Shown piece after piece: positions 19,289 through 29,247 of a stretch of 47,234 nt of DNA; positions within the stretch are counted from its first letter, which is position 1; each line of letters begins with the position of its first letter. The DNA is taken from positions 1 through 47,234 of IMG/VR virus record IMGVR_UViG_3300049207_000052; one strand, 5' to 3'. The notes below the pieces were generated by a model, which searched no databases, had not been told where the DNA came from, and worked only from the letters and a program-made list of their open reading frames with translations. Both the position numbers and the translations under genes were made by a program. Source of the DNA: a virus.

Positions 19289-20026
19289 TTAGATGAGCGC
19301 TAGGCTATCGACCTCTCGCGCTGTTGCTGGGTCGACCATTCGGGATCGACGAAATACACCCGTTGCCACAAGGGCATCTATGACCGGAACGGTAGCTTGT
19401 CGAGTGTTGCGACTGGCAGGGTGTGCAAAATCACGCAAAATGAAGTCGACGCTGTAATCCTTGATTTCATCTTTGTTGGCATTGGATTTACCGACCACCA
19501 GTTCACGATTTTCGCCAAAGGCTTCGACAAGTTGTCGCACAGCAAACCGGGCAGAAATTCGCGATTCTGGAAGGTTTATCCAGATATCGAGCGGGTCAAC
19601 GATCATCTCTTGAGTCAATCGAAGCTTGACATTCAGCGCATACAGAGCAGCCTCCAGTTGCTCCATCTTCGATGTGTGCAGGAAATCCACAAGGCGATCG
19701 CCCTGGGCCTGGTGCACACCGAGCAGGCGGCACAGGTCAGCCTTGCGCATATCCCGCTCCATCATGGCGTTCCACAGCGCGATCTTCGCCACGGTCACCG
19801 CTGGCAGATGAACGACGTGTTCGCCATCCAGAGGAGCGGACGCCGGCGGAATGGCACGGCGCGCGTCCACGTAGATGGAGAGGGCGCTTTCGATCCCGTC
19901 CAGGGCCTCACGGATAGCGTGCTCCTGGTCATCCCCATAGCTGTTGAGCTCTGGTAGGTCACGGCAGAACACGGCAACGCCTGGAGCGCTACCGTCCTTT
20001 TCAAAGCGGATTGCATAGTCGTACAT
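19289..20026 (-). CDS. hicB: HicB-type antitoxin with unusual C-terminal extension, 245 aa
   Basis: The first 60 residues fit the HicB RNase H-like fold (YDYAIRFEKDG...VAVFCRDLPELNSYGDDQEHAIREALDGIESAL). A helix-turn-helix follows at about 75-130 (MMERDMRKADLCRLLGVHQAQGDRLVDF). HicB normally ends near 130-140 residues, but here about 110 residues continue in frame (IWINLPESRISARFAVRQL... to the end) with no family I recognise. AAGGAG precedes the ATG. HicB neutralises HicA and represses the operon; two 10-bp repeats lie at the promoter upstream of hicA. Confidence 0.85.
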   Translation of the reverse strand: MYDYAIRFEKDGSAPGVAVFCRDLPELNSYGDDQEHAIREALDGIESALSIYVDARRAIPPASAPLDGEHVVHLPAVTVAKIALWNAMMERDMRKADLCRLLGVHQAQGDRLVDFLHTSKMEQLEAALYALNVKLRLTQEMIVDPLDIWINLPESRISARFAVRQLVEAFGENRELVVGKSNANKDEIKDYSVDFILRDFAHPASRNTRQATVPVIDALVATGVFRRSRMVDPATAREVDSLALI

Positions 20027-20077
20027 GGTCACTCCTTGGAGGTGATCGCTCAGCATTCAGAGGCGGTGAAGGGGCTC

Positions 20078-20257
20078 TCAGAGCCCCAGTTGTTTAATGA
20101 TCGCCTTGCGGGTCGGTTCCGGCATTTCCTTGGATCCGTGGTCCGCGAAGGTTGTCTTATTGCCGTTTGGGGCGGTGACTTTGAAGTGGCTTCCTTTGCC
20201 GGCTTCGAAGGTCACCCCTTGGGCCTTCAACCATCGTCTGAACTCGCTGAACTTCAT
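20078..20257 (-). CDS. hicA: HicA-type mRNA interferase toxin, 59 aa
   Basis: The sequence MKFSEFRRWLKAQGVTFEAGKGSHFKVTAPNGN, with the conserved GxGSHxK catalytic histidine region, is a typical HicA double-stranded RNA-binding fold toxin that cleaves mRNA and stops translation. Length is normal for the family. The start at 20257 follows GAGG; an upstream frame adds 10 residues without improvement. It precedes hicB on the same strand, as usual for the pair, and sits in a cargo island of the late region. Confidence 0.92.
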   Translation of the reverse strand: MKFSEFRRWLKAQGVTFEAGKGSHFKVTAPNGNKTTFADHGSKEMPEPTRKAIIKQLGL

Positions 20258-20285
20258 CACCTCGCCTCGTTGTTTGGATGAGTCC

Positions 20286-20325
20286 ACTCTACAACACTTT
20301 TGTTTTAATACAACACTTATGTGTT
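20286..20325 (-). promoter_or_regulatory. hicAB promoter and operator repeats
   Basis: On the minus strand TTGTAT (20313-20308) and TAGAGT (20291-20286) are 16 bases apart. Two identical TACAACACTT decamers (plus strand 20290-20299 and 20309-20318) lie 19 bp apart, overlapping the -10 and -35. The second also forms the palindrome AACAC-TTAT-GTGTT (20312-20325). HicB autoregulation is the expected use. Confidence 0.6.
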
Positions 20326-20700: not shown

Positions 20701-20933
20701 ATCGCCTGCTGATCGTCCTCATTCTGCTCACTGGCTGTGCGCACAAGGAAGCGATCCAGGAACCGCCGAAGGTTCAACGCGTCACCGTGCACCGATATGT
20801 CAGCGAACAATGCCAGCCAGGCCAAGAAGAGCGCCTACGCGAGGCCCTGAAAAGTGCCCGAGAGTGGAAGCGCTATGCCGAAAGCCTGGAAAAACTGCCA
20901 GCAGCGAAGATGACCCATGAAGTTGATCCCTGA
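20697..20933 (+). CDS. Small lipoprotein, Rz1/o-spanin-like, 78 aa
   Basis: A short signal sequence ends in the lipobox LTGC with Cys13 (MNRLLIVLILLTGCAHK), so the mature protein should be lipidated and sorted to the outer membrane. The rest is partly proline-bearing and then helical (EERLREALKSAREWKRYAESLEKL). Together with the preceding membrane protein it fits a two-component spanin that fuses the membranes at lysis. It starts with GTG overlapping the previous stop and its end overlaps the holin gene. Confidence 0.65.
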   Translation: MNRLLIVLILLTGCAHKEAIQEPPKVQRVTVHRYVSEQCQPGQEERLREALKSAREWKRYAESLEKLPAAKMTHEVDP

Positions 20934-21141
20934 ATGGCGGAAGGCCTGGCGCATGACGAGCGTGCAATTGGCGATTGTCGGTGTGGCGCTCAATGCGGCC
21001 GCAACGGGCTGGTCATCGTTCCAGGGGCATGTGGACCCCATGGTCTATGCCATCGTGAACATGGTGCTCGGCATCTCGGTTGCGGTGTCCCGGGTCATCA
21101 AGCAGCCAAAGCTCGCCGAGCAGCCGGATCAGCCTGAGTAA
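20917..21141 (+). CDS. Phage holin, two transmembrane segments, 74 aa
   Basis: Two hydrophobic segments at about residues 15-33 (VQLAIVGVALNAAATGW) and 42-60 (MVYAIVNMVLGISVAVSRVI), with a polar C-terminus, match a common class of small Pseudomonas phage holins that open the inner membrane at lysis. The start lies within the end of the lipoprotein gene. No endolysin gene is seen nearby; in related phages it can lie after the tail genes, beyond this window. Confidence 0.8.
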   Translation: MKLIPEWRKAWRMTSVQLAIVGVALNAAATGWSSFQGHVDPMVYAIVNMVLGISVAVSRVIKQPKLAEQPDQPE

Positions 21142-21683: not shown

Positions 21684-21989
21684 ATGACCGTCAAGGTGCT
21701 GGAGTTCAAGCGTCCCGATGCGCCGCACTCAGCCGGTGAGGCCGTTTGCACCTACTGCAAGCATGAGTGGGTGGCAGTTGCGCCGGCGGGCCAGAGAAAT
21801 CTGGAGTGTCCGGCCTGTAGTTCGCACCGGGGCGTGTTCAAGTGGCCCTATGGCCCATCCGAAGGCGATGAGGGCTACAAGTGCAATTGCGGCTCCGACG
21901 ATTTCTTCATCATGCGCCGGGGCAAGCAGGCCAATGGTGCCGTGTACTGCCGAGGTTGCGGTACAGAAGCCACTGGCTGGTTCCAATAA
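21684..21989 (+). CDS. Zinc-ribbon protein, 101 aa
   Basis: Several cysteine pairs are present: CTYC (22-25) with CPAC (42-45), and CNC (67-69) with CRGC (89-92). This suggests one or two zinc ribbons for nucleic-acid or protein binding. The ATG directly abuts the restored stop of the frameshifted gene. It lies in the group before the small terminase gene. No named family is recognised. Confidence 0.75.
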   Translation: MTVKVLEFKRPDAPHSAGEAVCTYCKHEWVAVAPAGQRNLECPACSSHRGVFKWPYGPSEGDEGYKCNCGSDDFFIMRRGKQANGAVYCRGCGTEATGWFQ

Positions 21990-22002
21990 ATCAGGATCCC
22001 CC

Positions 22003-22434
22003 ATGACAACCATTGCCTACAAAGACGGCGTGATCGCCTATGACGCTCGCCAGACCAGAAGCGGCGCCATCGTTTCTGACGATTGCTCGAAGTGCCAGGT
22101 TGTCGATGGGGTCAGCTTCCTCTTGGCGGGCACCGTGTGCGATGAGAAGGCTTTGATCGCGGCCTACTTCGGGACATCTTCCAAGGTCCCAGTGGATTGC
22201 TCAGGCTACGTTGTCGATGGCGGCAAGCTGATGATGGTCGGCCATGACGACGAGACGGGCATCTGGAAGCAGGATCTCGATCCGGCCAACCCTGACGCGA
22301 TTGGCAGTGGTGCACCGTACGCTCTGGCTGCAATGGATATGGGCGCAAGCGCGGAAGAAGCAGTACGCGCAGCCATGAAGCGAGACATCTACACGGGCGG
22401 CACGGTTCGCACTATGACCATCAAGCAAGACTAA
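22003..22434 (+). CDS. Proteasome/HslV-like Ntn-hydrolase candidate, 143 aa
   Basis: The N-terminus MTTIAYKDGVIAYDARQTRSG resembles HslV and proteasome beta subunits, which after Met removal use Thr as nucleophile (TTIVxxxxGxVxAxDxR/Q). Later features fit: GVSFLLAGTVCDEKAL, YAALAAM-type alanine helix (YALAAMDMGASAEEAVRAAMKRD) and a final GGTVRTMTI strand. Length is shorter than HslV (about 175), so the fold is compact. Its place just before terminase suggests a role in head maturation or proteolysis, but a capsid protease has not been shown for it. AGGA lies before the ATG. Confidence 0.65.
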   Translation: MTTIAYKDGVIAYDARQTRSGAIVSDDCSKCQVVDGVSFLLAGTVCDEKALIAAYFGTSSKVPVDCSGYVVDGGKLMMVGHDDETGIWKQDLDPANPDAIGSGAPYALAAMDMGASAEEAVRAAMKRDIYTGGTVRTMTIKQD

Positions 22435-22443
22435 GGATTCCCC

Positions 22444-23043
22444 ATGACAGCCAAGCAGCCCGACTGGGAGGCGATCGAACGAGCCTACCGGGCTGGGTCG
22501 CTTTCCATCCGAACCATCGCTGAGCGCCAAGGTGTGAGCGATACCGCAATCAGGAAGAAGGCCAAGGCCCTTGGATGGGCGAGAGACCTTTCTGACCAGG
22601 TACGCAAAGAGGTTCGCAGCAAGTTGGTTCGCGGAGAGGTTCGCAACGACCAAGGCGCGAACTGCGAACTGGATGCTGAGATCATCGAAGAGGCTGCCGA
22701 GGAAGGCGCCCGGGTGGTTCGCAGCCACCGGCGAGACATTCGCAAGGCGACGAATCTTGCGAACCTGTTGATGGACGATCTGCTGTCGACCATCCAGCGC
22801 CGCGAAGAGATCGAAGAAGACATCGAGGCCGAGACCTCCGAAGACAACAACGGTATGCGCCGCGCCTCGATGCTCGCCGCCGTCTCGCTGCCCAGCAATT
22901 CCAAAACACTGTTCCAGCTTTCCTCTGCAATGAAGAACCTGCAGGTTCTGGAGCGTCAGGCATACAGCCTGGACGAGAAGGAGAAGACGGACGAAGCTGA
23001 CGAACTCTCGAAGATGATGGACGAACTATCGAAGGACGCCTGA
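22444..23043 (+). CDS. Terminase small subunit, 199 aa
   Basis: The N-terminal helix-turn-helix (WEAIERAYRAGSLSIRTIAERQGVSDTAIRKKAKALGW) is typical of phage small terminase subunits that recognise the packaging site. A helical, acidic middle (RREEIEEDIEAETSEDNN) and C-terminus (SKTLFQLSSAMKNLQVLERQAYSLDE) follow. AAGGA precedes the ATG. It lies directly before the large subunit, with one base between stop and start. Packaging type (cos or headful) cannot be told from the sequence. Confidence 0.9.
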   Translation: MTAKQPDWEAIERAYRAGSLSIRTIAERQGVSDTAIRKKAKALGWARDLSDQVRKEVRSKLVRGEVRNDQGANCELDAEIIEEAAEEGARVVRSHRRDIRKATNLANLLMDDLLSTIQRREEIEEDIEAETSEDNNGMRRASMLAAVSLPSNSKTLFQLSSAMKNLQVLERQAYSLDEKEKTDEADELSKMMDELSKDA

Positions 23044-23044
23044 C

Positions 23045-24532
23045 ATGAAGCCCGAGCACATGAAGCTGCTCCGGGATAAGCGTTGGCGGTTGAACAATCT
23101 CTACTTCATCACCGACAAGCAGGGCAAAAAAGTCCGCTTCCGGATGACGGACGAGCAGATTGAATACTTCGATGGGATGCATACCCGCAACATCATCCTG
23201 AAGGCTCGGCAGCTCGGCTTCACCACTGAGTGCTGCATCATCCAGCTGGACGCCGCTCTGTTTGAGTCGGCCAAGTGCGCACTGATCGCCCACACCCTGA
23301 ACGATGCCAAGCGCCTGTTCCGGGAAAAGGTGAAGTACGCCTACGACAACCTGCCGAAAGAGATCCGCGCCGCCAACCCAGCGAGCAACGATGCCGCCGG
23401 CGAACTGGTATTCAGCAAGGGCGGCTCGCTCTATGTCAGTACTTCCTTCCGGGGCGGCACGCTGCGTTACCTGCACGTCTCCGAGTTCGGGAAGATTTGC
23501 GCCAAGTTTCCGCACAAGGCGCGCGAGATCGTCACCGGTGCTTTCGAGGCGGTGGCCACAGACTGTTTCGTTACGATTGAATCGACGGCTGAAGGCCGGG
23601 CCGGCTACTTCTTCGATTACTCACAGAGCGCCGAGAAGCAGCAGTTGTCAGGCGCGCCGCTCGGCAAGCTGGACTGGAAGTTCTTCTTCTTTAGCTGGTG
23701 GAAAAACAAGGCCTACTGGCTCGACCCGGCCGAAGCGATCATCCCGCAGCGGCTGGCCGACTACTTCAACGAGCTGTTCGCCAAGTACGGCATCGACACC
23801 AACCCAGGCCAGCGAGCTTGGTACGCCGCCAAGGAAAAGACCCTCGGCGACGACATGAAGCGGGAATACCCCTCCATCCCTGTCGAGGCCTTCCAGCAGT
23901 CGATCGAGGGCGCGTATTACGCCAGGCAGTTCGCCAAGCTCTACGGCGCGCAGCGCATCGGCACGTTGCCAGACAACAGCCACCTGCCGGTGATGACCTT
24001 CTGGGACATCGGCGTCGGCGACTCCACGGCCATCTGGTTCGTGCGTCAGGTCGGTACCGAGTTCCACGTCATCGACTTCTACCAGAACAGCGGAGAGGGC
24101 CTGCGGCACTACATGAAGGTGCTGAAGGACAAGGGTTACACCTACTCCGAACACTGGGGGCCGCACGACATCGACAACCGTGAGTTCGGTAGCGATGCCA
24201 AGACCCGCCGGGAAATGGCGCGCGAAGGTTATGAGATCGACGGCCAACGCTACAGCATGACGTTCCAGGTCGTGCCGAAGATCGGTGTGGACGATGGCAT
24301 CGATCAAGTCCGCGAGATATTGGCCCATTGCGCCTTTGACGAATCGAAGTGCGAAGAGGGCATCACCGCGCTCGAGAACTACCGCAAAGAGTGGGACGAC
24401 AAGAAGGGCTGCTGGAAAGACAAGCCGCTCCATGACTGGGCGTCTCACTCGTCCGATGCATTCCGGTACTTCGCCGTCGCTAAGAGCGCCAGGAAGCCGG
24501 TTAAATCAATCAAAATGGGATTCGCACGCTAA
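23045..24532 (+). CDS. Terminase large subunit, 495 aa
   Basis: The N-terminal ATPase has a deviant Walker A KARQLGFTT (53-61) and a Walker B-like hydrophobic strand ending in VSEFGK near 145. The C-terminal RNase H-like nuclease begins with TFWDIGVGDSTAIWF, carrying a catalytic Asp, and has further acidic residues later (HDWASHSSDAFRY). The protein cuts concatemeric phage DNA and drives it into the prohead through the portal encoded next. Length is normal. The stop overlaps the portal start as TAATG. Confidence 0.95.
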   Translation: MKPEHMKLLRDKRWRLNNLYFITDKQGKKVRFRMTDEQIEYFDGMHTRNIILKARQLGFTTECCIIQLDAALFESAKCALIAHTLNDAKRLFREKVKYAYDNLPKEIRAANPASNDAAGELVFSKGGSLYVSTSFRGGTLRYLHVSEFGKICAKFPHKAREIVTGAFEAVATDCFVTIESTAEGRAGYFFDYSQSAEKQQLSGAPLGKLDWKFFFFSWWKNKAYWLDPAEAIIPQRLADYFNELFAKYGIDTNPGQRAWYAAKEKTLGDDMKREYPSIPVEAFQQSIEGAYYARQFAKLYGAQRIGTLPDNSHLPVMTFWDIGVGDSTAIWFVRQVGTEFHVIDFYQNSGEGLRHYMKVLKDKGYTYSEHWGPHDIDNREFGSDAKTRREMAREGYEIDGQRYSMTFQVVPKIGVDDGIDQVREILAHCAFDESKCEEGITALENYRKEWDDKKGCWKDKPLHDWASHSSDAFRYFAVAKSARKPVKSIKMGFAR

Positions 24533-27474: not shown

Positions 27475-27489
27475 CAGCGTTTTTTATGA

Positions 27490-27515
27490 AACCCCGCTTG
27501 GTGCGGGGTTTTTTT
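27490..27515 (+). terminator. Strong intrinsic terminator after the DUF2591 gene
   Basis: AACCCCGC (27490-27497) pairs with GCGGGGTT (27503-27510) around TTGGT, followed by a T run to 27515. It lies within the late operon, so scaffold and capsid expression needs antitermination or a local promoter. Confidence 0.88.
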
Positions 27516-27560
27516 ATGCCCGCAGGCAGGGCCTGCACCAAGGTCTCTGGGAGACAACCA

Positions 27561-28268
27561 ATGCTGAAATTCCAACTGGATACCCTGGAAGGGGTAGATG
27601 AAGCCGTGCGCGCTCTTTACACCGAGAAGGACGGCAAGTTCGTGCTCGGCATTGAAGGTCTGCCGCAGCAAGAAGATGTATCCGGCCTGAAGGCCAAGGT
27701 TGATGAGCTGCTCGGCGAGAAAAAACTGGCCGAGAAGAAGGCGCGCGAGGCTGAAGAAGCAGCGCGCCTGGAGCGTGAAGAAGCTGCTCGCAAATCCGGA
27801 AACGTCGAAGAGCTCGAACGTTCCTGGTCTGAGAAATACAACCGCCGCGAAGCTGAGCTGAACGGCATGCTGGAACAGGAGCGTGGAACGCTGAGCGGGC
27901 AGATCCGGGATCTGACTGTCGGCCGTACCGCTACTGATATCGCCTCTGCACTGGCAGTACAAGGCAGCGCGAAAGCCCTGTTGCCGCACATCGAACGCCG
28001 TCTGAGCGTCGAGCAGCGCGACGGGAAGCCTGTTGTGGTCGTCCTCGACGCACAGGGCAAGCTCTCTGCGGCAACGCTGGACGAGCTGAAAGCGGAAATC
28101 GCAAACGATACGGCCTTTGCGCCGTTGATCGCGGGTAGTAAGGCATCTGGTGGCGGGGCCAGCGGTGCTGGAGGTGGCGGCGGGGCCGCAAAAGGAAAAA
28201 TCGGCGGCACCAAAGAGGAACGACAGGCAGCAATTGCGAGCCGGTTCCCGGATCTCCCTCAATCGTAA
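27561..28268 (+). CDS. Capsid scaffolding protein, 235 aa
   Basis: The protein is dominated by a charged coiled coil (about residues 45-110: LKAKVDELLGEKKLAEKKAREAEEAARLEREEAARK). It has a GGG-rich flexible C-terminal region before a helical end. This composition, and its position directly before the major capsid gene, is typical of scaffolding proteins that template prohead assembly and leave before packaging. GGGAG lies before the ATG; the longer frame from 27486 overlaps the terminator. Confidence 0.82.
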   Translation: MLKFQLDTLEGVDEAVRALYTEKDGKFVLGIEGLPQQEDVSGLKAKVDELLGEKKLAEKKAREAEEAARLEREEAARKSGNVEELERSWSEKYNRREAELNGMLEQERGTLSGQIRDLTVGRTATDIASALAVQGSAKALLPHIERRLSVEQRDGKPVVVVLDAQGKLSAATLDELKAEIANDTAFAPLIAGSKASGGGASGAGGGGGAAKGKIGGTKEERQAAIASRFPDLPQS

Positions 28269-28278
28269 GGAATAACTC

Positions 28279-29247
28279 ATGTCCCTGTCGCAAATGCAGG
28301 TCTTCAACCAGTACATCATGCCGGCTACTCTCGAGACGCTGGATCAGTATCTGGCCGCTTTCAACGCCGCAAGTCGTGGCGCGATCGTGCTGTCTCCGGA
28401 CGGTTTCACTGGTGACTTCTTGCAAGAGTCGTTCTTCCAGACCCTGGCTGCTGCCCAGCGCCGTGTCGATCGCTACAGTGCCAACGCCGCTGTTGCTGCG
28501 ACCGATTTGACCGAGCTGAAGAATACTTCGGTCAAGGTTGCAGGTGGTTTCGGTCCGATCCGATACGAGCCGTCGCAAATGACCTGGCTGGAGCGCCCAA
28601 CCACGCAAGGCATCGAGGTTGCGAGCCGCGCGTTCGCTGAAATCCTGCTGAAGGATCAACTGAACACTGCGATCGCCGCCCTGGTCGCTGCTATCACCGC
28701 CCAGGCTGCTGCCGTCAACGATGTGTCTGCTACCGCTGGCATCACCTACGCCGGCCTGAACAACGCCCACGCGAAGTTCGGCGACGCAAGCCAGAACTTG
28801 GTCACCCAAGTGATGCAGGGCACCAGCTACCACAAGTTAGTCGGCCAGAACCTGGCGAACCAGCAGCAGCTGTTCCAGGCCGGCAACGTCCGCGTGGTGG
28901 ACATCCTTGGAAAAATCTCCGTTGTGACGGATGCCCCTGCACTGATGCAGGCAGGTACGCCGAACAAGGAAATCATCCTGTCCCTGGTCCAAGGCGCCGC
29001 TCTGGTTCACGACGGCCGCGACATTGTCAGCAACGTCGAAACCACCAACGGCAAGGAGCGCATCGAGACCACCCTCCAGACCGACTACACCTTCGGCTTG
29101 GGCCTCAAGGGGTATACCTGGGACACCACCGCCGGCGGCAAGTCTCCAACCGACGCCGAGCTGTCTACCGGCACCAACTGGGACAAGACCGCCACCAGCA
29201 TCAAGCACACCGCCGGTGTTGCACTGATCGGTGACGCCTCCAAGTAA
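28279..29247 (+). CDS. Major capsid protein, 322 aa
   Basis: An alanine-rich shell protein expressed after scaffold. Features include FNAASRGAIVLSPDGFTGDFLQESFF near the N-terminus, a helix-rich middle (LKDQLNTAIAALVAAITAQAAAVNDVSAT) and a strand-rich C-terminal region (TLQTDYTFGLGLKGYTWD). Placement between scaffold and head-completion genes and the strong AAGGAA ribosome site support major capsid identity. A HK97-like fold is expected for this phage type but is not proven here. Confidence 0.9.
   Translation: MSLSQMQVFNQYIMPATLETLDQYLAAFNAASRGAIVLSPDGFTGDFLQESFFQTLAAAQRRVDRYSANAAVAATDLTELKNTSVKVAGGFGPIRYEPSQMTWLERPTTQGIEVASRAFAEILLKDQLNTAIAALVAAITAQAAAVNDVSATAGITYAGLNNAHAKFGDASQNLVTQVMQGTSYHKLVGQNLANQQQLFQAGNVRVVDILGKISVVTDAPALMQAGTPNKEIILSLVQGAALVHDGRDIVSNVETTNGKERIETTLQTDYTFGLGLKGYTWDTTAGGKSPTDAELSTGTNWDKTATSIKHTAGVALIGDASK

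Follow-up and report, generated by a model that had tools for sequence, protein, structure and literature searches.

Why should a phage encode a protein of only 143 residues resembling HslV and the proteasome, and why next to its terminase genes? The locus lies in a virus record of 47,234 bases, analysed over its whole length and called the window here. The window carries an integrase and is therefore probably a temperate phage, with Pseudomonas or a near relative as the probable host. A preliminary description of the gene had proposed that its product matures head proteins, degrades host factors or is a catalytically changed structural protein. The observation itself was confirmed and its interpretation partly supported, neither of the outcomes named there as refuting it (a fold unlike Ntn hydrolases, or no conservation of Thr2 and a catalytic Lys among homologues) having been found; of the three roles, the one that survives is action on host factors inside the cell. 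Our best explanation, to which we give a probability of about 0.62, is that the protein, a member of the PPH family, is a non-structural, accessory threonine hydrolase that works without an unfoldase in the infected cell, a host or defence protein being the likeliest target. Five computational observations enter into it: the fold, the conservation of catalytic residues, purifying selection, optional presence and a natural deletion. The features of the window that bear on the question are given in Table 1.

Table 1. Coordinates of the PPH gene, its predicted active-site codons and neighbouring genes in the window
Feature	Position	Strand	Evidence
Holin, upstream context	20917..21141	+	PHROG 1356 holin, 6.2e-21
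Small zinc-ribbon-like gene adjoining PPH upstream	21684..21989	+	Weak Pfam matches; adjoins PPH in none of 77 close loci
Shine-Dalgarno-like AGGA, 6 nt 5' of the PPH ATG	21993..21996	+	By eye
PPH gene, 143 aa, predicted proteasome-beta/HslV fold	22003..22434	+	Translation, PHROG, PDB profile search, model
Thr2 codon, predicted nucleophile (Thr1 once Met is removed)	22006..22008	+	124/124 distinct relatives; at residue 1 of E. coli HslV
Asp14 codon, Asp17 counterpart	22042..22044	+	121/124
Lys30 codon, Lys33 counterpart	22090..22092	+	118/124 in the exact column; 124/124 within 4 columns
Gly43 codon, likely oxyanion-hole glycine, Gly47 counterpart	22129..22131	+	124/124
Gly-Ser-Gly 101-103, counterpart of the proteasome GSG near Ser129	22303..22311	+	Ser102 119/124; aligned with beta-8 GSG
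Asp128-Ile-Tyr-Thr131, D166xxS169 counterpart	22384..22395	+	Asp128 124/124; Thr/Ser131 in 55/57 representatives
Terminase small subunit (terS)	22444..23043	+	PHROG 1206, 8.3e-67
Terminase large subunit (terL)	23045..24532	+	PHROG 2, 1.2e-38
Head scaffold (27486-28268) and separate major capsid protein (28279-29247)	27486..29247	+	PHROG 206, 2e-57; PHROG 247, 1.9e-72

The reading frame is genuine, and its translation agrees with the peptide features noted earlier: the product begins MTTIAYKDG, DAR occupies residues 14-16 and GGTVRTM residues 132-138. Of the 124 distinct relatives, counting the window itself, 121 have ATG at the start aligned with position 22003, and the other three read TTG, GTG and ACG; the ACG stems from sequence extraction in our analysis, the annotated start of that relative being a GTG one codon upstream. 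A longer in-frame reading frame from 21718 overlaps a gene in a different frame and finds no support among the relatives, given their aligned ATG.

The resemblance of the product to HslV and the proteasome is above chance. PHROG 1040, 'peptidase HslV family', matched residues 1-142 (E 1.4e-38), a label that is also the RefSeq annotation in KPP10, PAK_P3, AG11 and CcrPW, and a profile built from 55 relatives matched proteasome beta-8/beta-5 in the PDB at 1.8e-12 and HslV at 5.4e-8. As a single sequence, the protein scored E 0.012 with Pfam PF00227 (15.7 bits, gathering cut-off 22.4) and E 1.2e-5 with the archaeal proteasome beta model of NCBIfam, TIGR03634 (25 bits, cut-off 224); both scores are below the cut-offs, and thus neither collection claims it.

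The AlphaFold2 model of the monomer, made with 45 aligned sequences (mean pLDDT 95.8, pTM 0.88), has the predicted fold of HslV and the proteasome beta subunits, as had been supposed from the sequence. The top match by VIA-align was E. coli HslV (4g4e_A; Z 16.3, rmsd 2.7, 137 aligned residues, 24% identity), and residue 2 of the model superposes on residue 1 of that chain. All 50 matches listed are HslV, proteasome beta subunits or BPH, those less than 1 Z unit apart being counted as tied, and Foldseek was concordant (best 5.2e-8). Since the fold is common to HslV and the proteasome, the structural match does not pick one over the other. The only helices of the predicted model are residues 45-55, 104-112 and 117-125; a counterpart of H2 is absent and H1 is short.

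Alignment to the proteasome gives T2, D14, K30 and G43 as the counterparts of Thr1, Asp17, Lys33 and Gly47. Lys30 sits 16 residues past Asp14, as in the proteasome, and this spacing is kept in 116 of the 118 sequences whose Lys aligns exactly. The same alignment pairs Ser102, Asp128 and Thr131 with Ser129, Asp166 and Ser169 of the proteasome site. The preliminary description had named the Thr after Met as the nucleophile, and both this Thr2 and the catalytic Lys are kept in every relative, although the conservation counts are biased upward, since some motifs of the three pattern scans used span Thr2 or Lys30. The 124 distinct sequences, window included, remained from 159 loci after removal of copies of the window (L003, L004), partial or masked loci (L060, L115, L118, L144, L159) and sequences containing X; clustering at 80% gave the 57 representatives. 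In 15 phage sequences taken from tblastn matches, neither Thr2 nor Asp14 varies, and at least 90% have Lys30. Across 1108 non-independent pairs (dS 0.1-1), the median dN/dS (omega) was 0.087, indicating purifying selection. The gene is kept, and judging from these alignments the catalytic site looks alive. Two of the representatives differ at the Asp14 place, which is N in L156:7251-7688 and E in L110:4001-4444; these relatives are possibly inactive or altered enzymes.

On our best reading, the protein is a minimal single-domain proteasome-like N-terminal-nucleophile hydrolase. Threonine is a permissive second residue for methionine aminopeptidase, and the host enzyme would strip Met1 and leave Thr2 as the nucleophile Thr1, making a propeptide unnecessary. 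Lys30 and Asp14 would activate the threonine, Gly43 would provide the oxyanion hole, and Ser102, Asp128 and Thr131 would support the site.

Such proteins were described as PPH (Fuchs, Alva and Lupas 2021; PMC8665760): about 140 residues, found in Caudovirales phages and their hosts, without propeptide and without H2. The available text of that paper asks for experiments and reports none on PPH. The window protein belongs to this family, in which it was placed by the published description rather than by alignment to the family's representative. It has 143 residues and comes from a virus record, its predicted model lacks H2, and Thr directly follows Met (in all 124 relatives, with the aligned ATG in 121); the conserved Thr, Asp and Lys and the oxyanion glycine are likewise those of PPH as described. 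The fold and the Thr1/Asp17/Lys33/Gly47 counterparts also place it among the proteasome-like Ntn hydrolases at large. A literature search, which extended neither to bioRxiv preprints nor to the majority of subscription journals, found no papers on PPH activity. We know of no enzyme activity for any PPH. The window protein is a confirmed member of a known family; the new points, set out below, are the case against its serving in the head and the natural pairs of phages with and without the gene.

The label HslV is too narrow for this protein. The earlier identification with HslV (ClpQ) holds for the fold, the threonine nucleophile and the positions of Asp and Lys, whereas some 30 residues and, in the predicted model, H2 of the H1 and H2 pair are missing from PPH, and the phage encodes no HslU-like partner. 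PHROG 1040, some members of which bear C-terminal extensions, says HslV as well, yet the window protein is without H2. Proteasome beta subunits (beta-5, beta-8, archaeal beta) are the closest PDB profile relatives and share the GSG and RDxYS/TGG motifs, but PPH has neither their propeptide nor H2 and as a single sequence stays below the Pfam and NCBIfam cut-offs. A phage-encoded HslU was sought and rejected: no HslU-like AAA_2 domain exceeded the cut-off in any of 14 phage records (phage genomes only; controls were detected in 14 of 14), with three sub-threshold matches in TM39, 2L372D and nepoznato. Because both H2 and a phage-encoded HslU-like unfoldase are missing, PPH would most likely act independently of ATP, as a small or unusual oligomer whose substrates are peptides, unfolded stretches or a single specific protein.

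The catalytic layout, as far as it can be read from residues, would fit a protease, a ligase or another amide-transfer enzyme alike. PPH might then be a specific protein ligase of the connectase kind, or another amide-transfer enzyme, rather than a general protease. Connectase is a monomeric proteasome-like ligase that likewise has no surface helices H1-H2 (PMC8665760, in the text available), and small size and the lack of an unfoldase would suit action at one defined site. However, the two-helix insertion of connectase is missing from the PPH model, and PPH has no known substrate or recognition motif, so that we regard this alternative as rather unlikely. BPH, the other proteasome-like relative described there as not known to employ an unfoldase, has the full H1-H4, whereas PPH is without H2.

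We think it unlikely that PPH mimics HslV by joining the host HslV/HslU, either to turn the host unfoldase towards other substrates or to poison HslUV. Ranked by Z, the best-matching solved folds are HslV chains, and the 14 phage records encode no unfoldase of their own; against this, subunits of HslV and of proteasomes touch one another through H1-H4 according to the available text of PMC8665760, while the model has no H2 and a short H1. The identity to E. coli HslV in the structural alignment is just 24%, and PPH phages infect very different hosts.

This spread of hosts was apparent from tblastn: at E <=0.01 it matched 549 of the 50,697 phage records searched, and in 185 the match spanned 80% or more of the query. 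In IMG/VR, 318 of 344 candidate stretches from a pattern scan were confirmed as relatives, the best 80 of which were used; for GTDB genomes the corresponding figure was 41 of 371, Pseudomonas being the main source. Mixed alignments for wider viral motif scans yielded no conserved stretch.

The position just before terminase is correct for the window but does not hold as a general rule. PPH lies immediately 5' of holins in Jerseyvirus AG11 and Kagunavirus Bas73, amid helicase, DprA-like and endolysin genes in KPP10 and PAK_P3, and ahead of a PhageMetallopep gene and then terminase in AH14a; in Vibrio phage L1 it is directly 5' of the gene preceding the major capsid gene. With relatives adjoining lysis, DNA-metabolism or tail genes, the placement beside packaging genes, pointed out earlier, is incidental. 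The early genes of PAK_P3 are given as gp74-gp112 in the available text, and its PPH, gp143, is outside that block. A PHROG scan of 84 upstream and 90 downstream proteins, pooled from the window and 36 representative loci (longest-ORF gene calls, cut from 108 and 111, with the window holin added upstream), found no partner gene recurring beside PPH, nor any recurring unfoldase or inhibitor. Terminase large subunit came up most often, at 9 of the 90 downstream proteins; among the 84 upstream proteins, no family accounted for more than 2. A downstream gene was called in 74 close loci; it is a terS of the window type in 26 of these and in 34 belongs to the PF18894 PhageMetallopep cluster, which was defined by blastp with PF18894 tested on a representative only. 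Examples of the latter directly 3' of PPH are L009:6854-7459 and its relatives and p59 of AH14a (L085:8437-9057), where two putative peptidase genes stand side by side.

In Kagunavirus the gene is present in some phages and absent from others. The gene order of Bas73 is a 97-aa gene, PPH and holin; K1H has the 97-aa gene (94.8% identical to that of Bas73) followed by the holin (82% identical), without PPH. Compared with Bas73, K1H has a gap of 421 bases at the junction and retains the final 18 bases of the PPH frame, and K1G and Bas74 have this same deletion junction with few base changes. PPH of Jerseyvirus AG11 has a similar end and is at the same place, so that loss in Kagunavirus is the simpler reading. 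The K1H junction used as a query matched 121 records. Of the 60 listed, 39 matched in one piece (no PPH), 16 in two pieces separated by a gap the size of PPH (PPH present) and 5 partially; 55 were thus fully covered, GenBank and RefSeq copies of one phage being counted twice. As Kagunavirus phages without PPH grow, the gene is dispensable there. On this evidence, PPH is an optional tool, not a head-building part.

The idea of a head maturation protease, one that would break down the scaffold or trim the capsid protein as proheads assemble, is accordingly disfavoured, and we hold it very unlikely, because most of the capsid-sharing phages searched lack PPH, two published virion proteomes do not name it and its neighbours vary. 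Gene position speaks for such a role in places: PPH is only 9 bases 5' of terS in the window, precedes the gene before the major capsid protein in Vibrio phage L1, and is shortly 3' of the capsid gene in Gungnir39 and Vibrio 1.131.O. The scaffold gene of the window is also separate, and no stand-alone protease was found among the head proteins scanned. A head protease should nevertheless be needed wherever the same head is built and keep a fixed place in the head cluster. Ten records picked from 327 with a related capsid protein (major capsid protein 54-65% identical) were searched with PHROG 1040, which found 15 of 15 known PPH carriers in a control. It was absent from seven (Pkon1, R656, PS-1, Tsm2, K1H, LP.2 and 242E40-1) and found in Gungnir39 and Vibrio 1.131.O, with a weak partial match in TCUAN1 (7.3e-4). 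Jerseyvirus, KPP10-like and jumbo phages carry PPH apart from recognisable head genes, and Kagunavirus has lost it. The 25 virion proteins of PAK_P3 comprise 21 from the structural region, two encoded nearby (gp160, gp166) and gp72 (PMC4309531); the available text covers 24 of the 25 and does not name gp143. AH14a particles, which are tailless heads, contained p62, p63, p66 and p68, and the PPH protein p58 is not among the proteins identified in the available text (PMC4936722), where the capsid protein, with 92% of its sequence covered, gives no hint of large-scale trimming. A catalytically dead structural or regulatory protein retaining only the fold, much as had also been suggested, is most improbable, for although 2 of 57 representatives have E or N at Asp14, Thr2 and Lys are present in all 124 distinct relatives and the available accounts of the PAK_P3 and AH14a virion proteomes do not name PPH.

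The preferred reading is then an accessory hydrolase made in the infected cell and dispensable to the phage, which most likely would target host or defence proteins. That it is catalytic, independent of ATP and directed at this class of target is what we infer, host or defence proteins being the likeliest target by elimination. The BASEL Kagunavirus phages offer no support for such a target in the available text. Bas73 carries PPH, and Bas70, 71, 74 and 75 are without it; Bas70-73 and Bas74-76 are described as much alike in behaviour, being highly sensitive to restriction and variably sensitive to Old (PMC11990801), so that no counter-defence benefit of PPH is visible there, and the words protease and proteasome are absent from the main text of that paper. 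These natural plus/minus pairs (Bas73 with PPH, Bas74 without; BASEL) allow a direct test of its role. Hundreds of phages carry PPH, and the field is narrowed to an apparently live enzyme that two virion proteomes do not name, that this head type does not require and that has been cleanly deleted in close relatives. It is possible, if doubtful, that PPH is among the smallest working proteasome-fold enzymes, an unfoldase-independent threonine hydrolase or ligase acting as a monomer or non-ring oligomer on a specific host or defence protein, retained by phages where that target is present and cleanly dropped where it is missing, for example in Kagunavirus.

Some relatives depart from the single short gene. 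Aeromonas phage 2L372D (W21) has three PPH-like genes (119602-120492, 119027-119599 and 82259-82852), two of them in tandem, and the upstream tandem copy retains Thr, Asp and Lys but has lost the GSG and RDxYTGG motifs; the tandem copies might form a mixed oligomer. An alpha/beta-like tandem pair as the rule was rejected, since among 25 records searched multiple PPH-like places occur only in this phage. In L095 (Phapecoctavirus nepoznato) and L091 (2L372D gp211) the PPH domain is followed by a long acidic C-terminal extension, for totals of 230 and 294 aa, and these proteins resemble the RPC class as described in the available text of PMC8665760. In the window itself, the minus strand at 19289-20287 holds a HicA toxin gene (PF07927, 1.9e-12, over the cut-off) and, adjoining it, a HicB-like antitoxin gene (PF15970, 1.6e-6, slightly below the cut-off).
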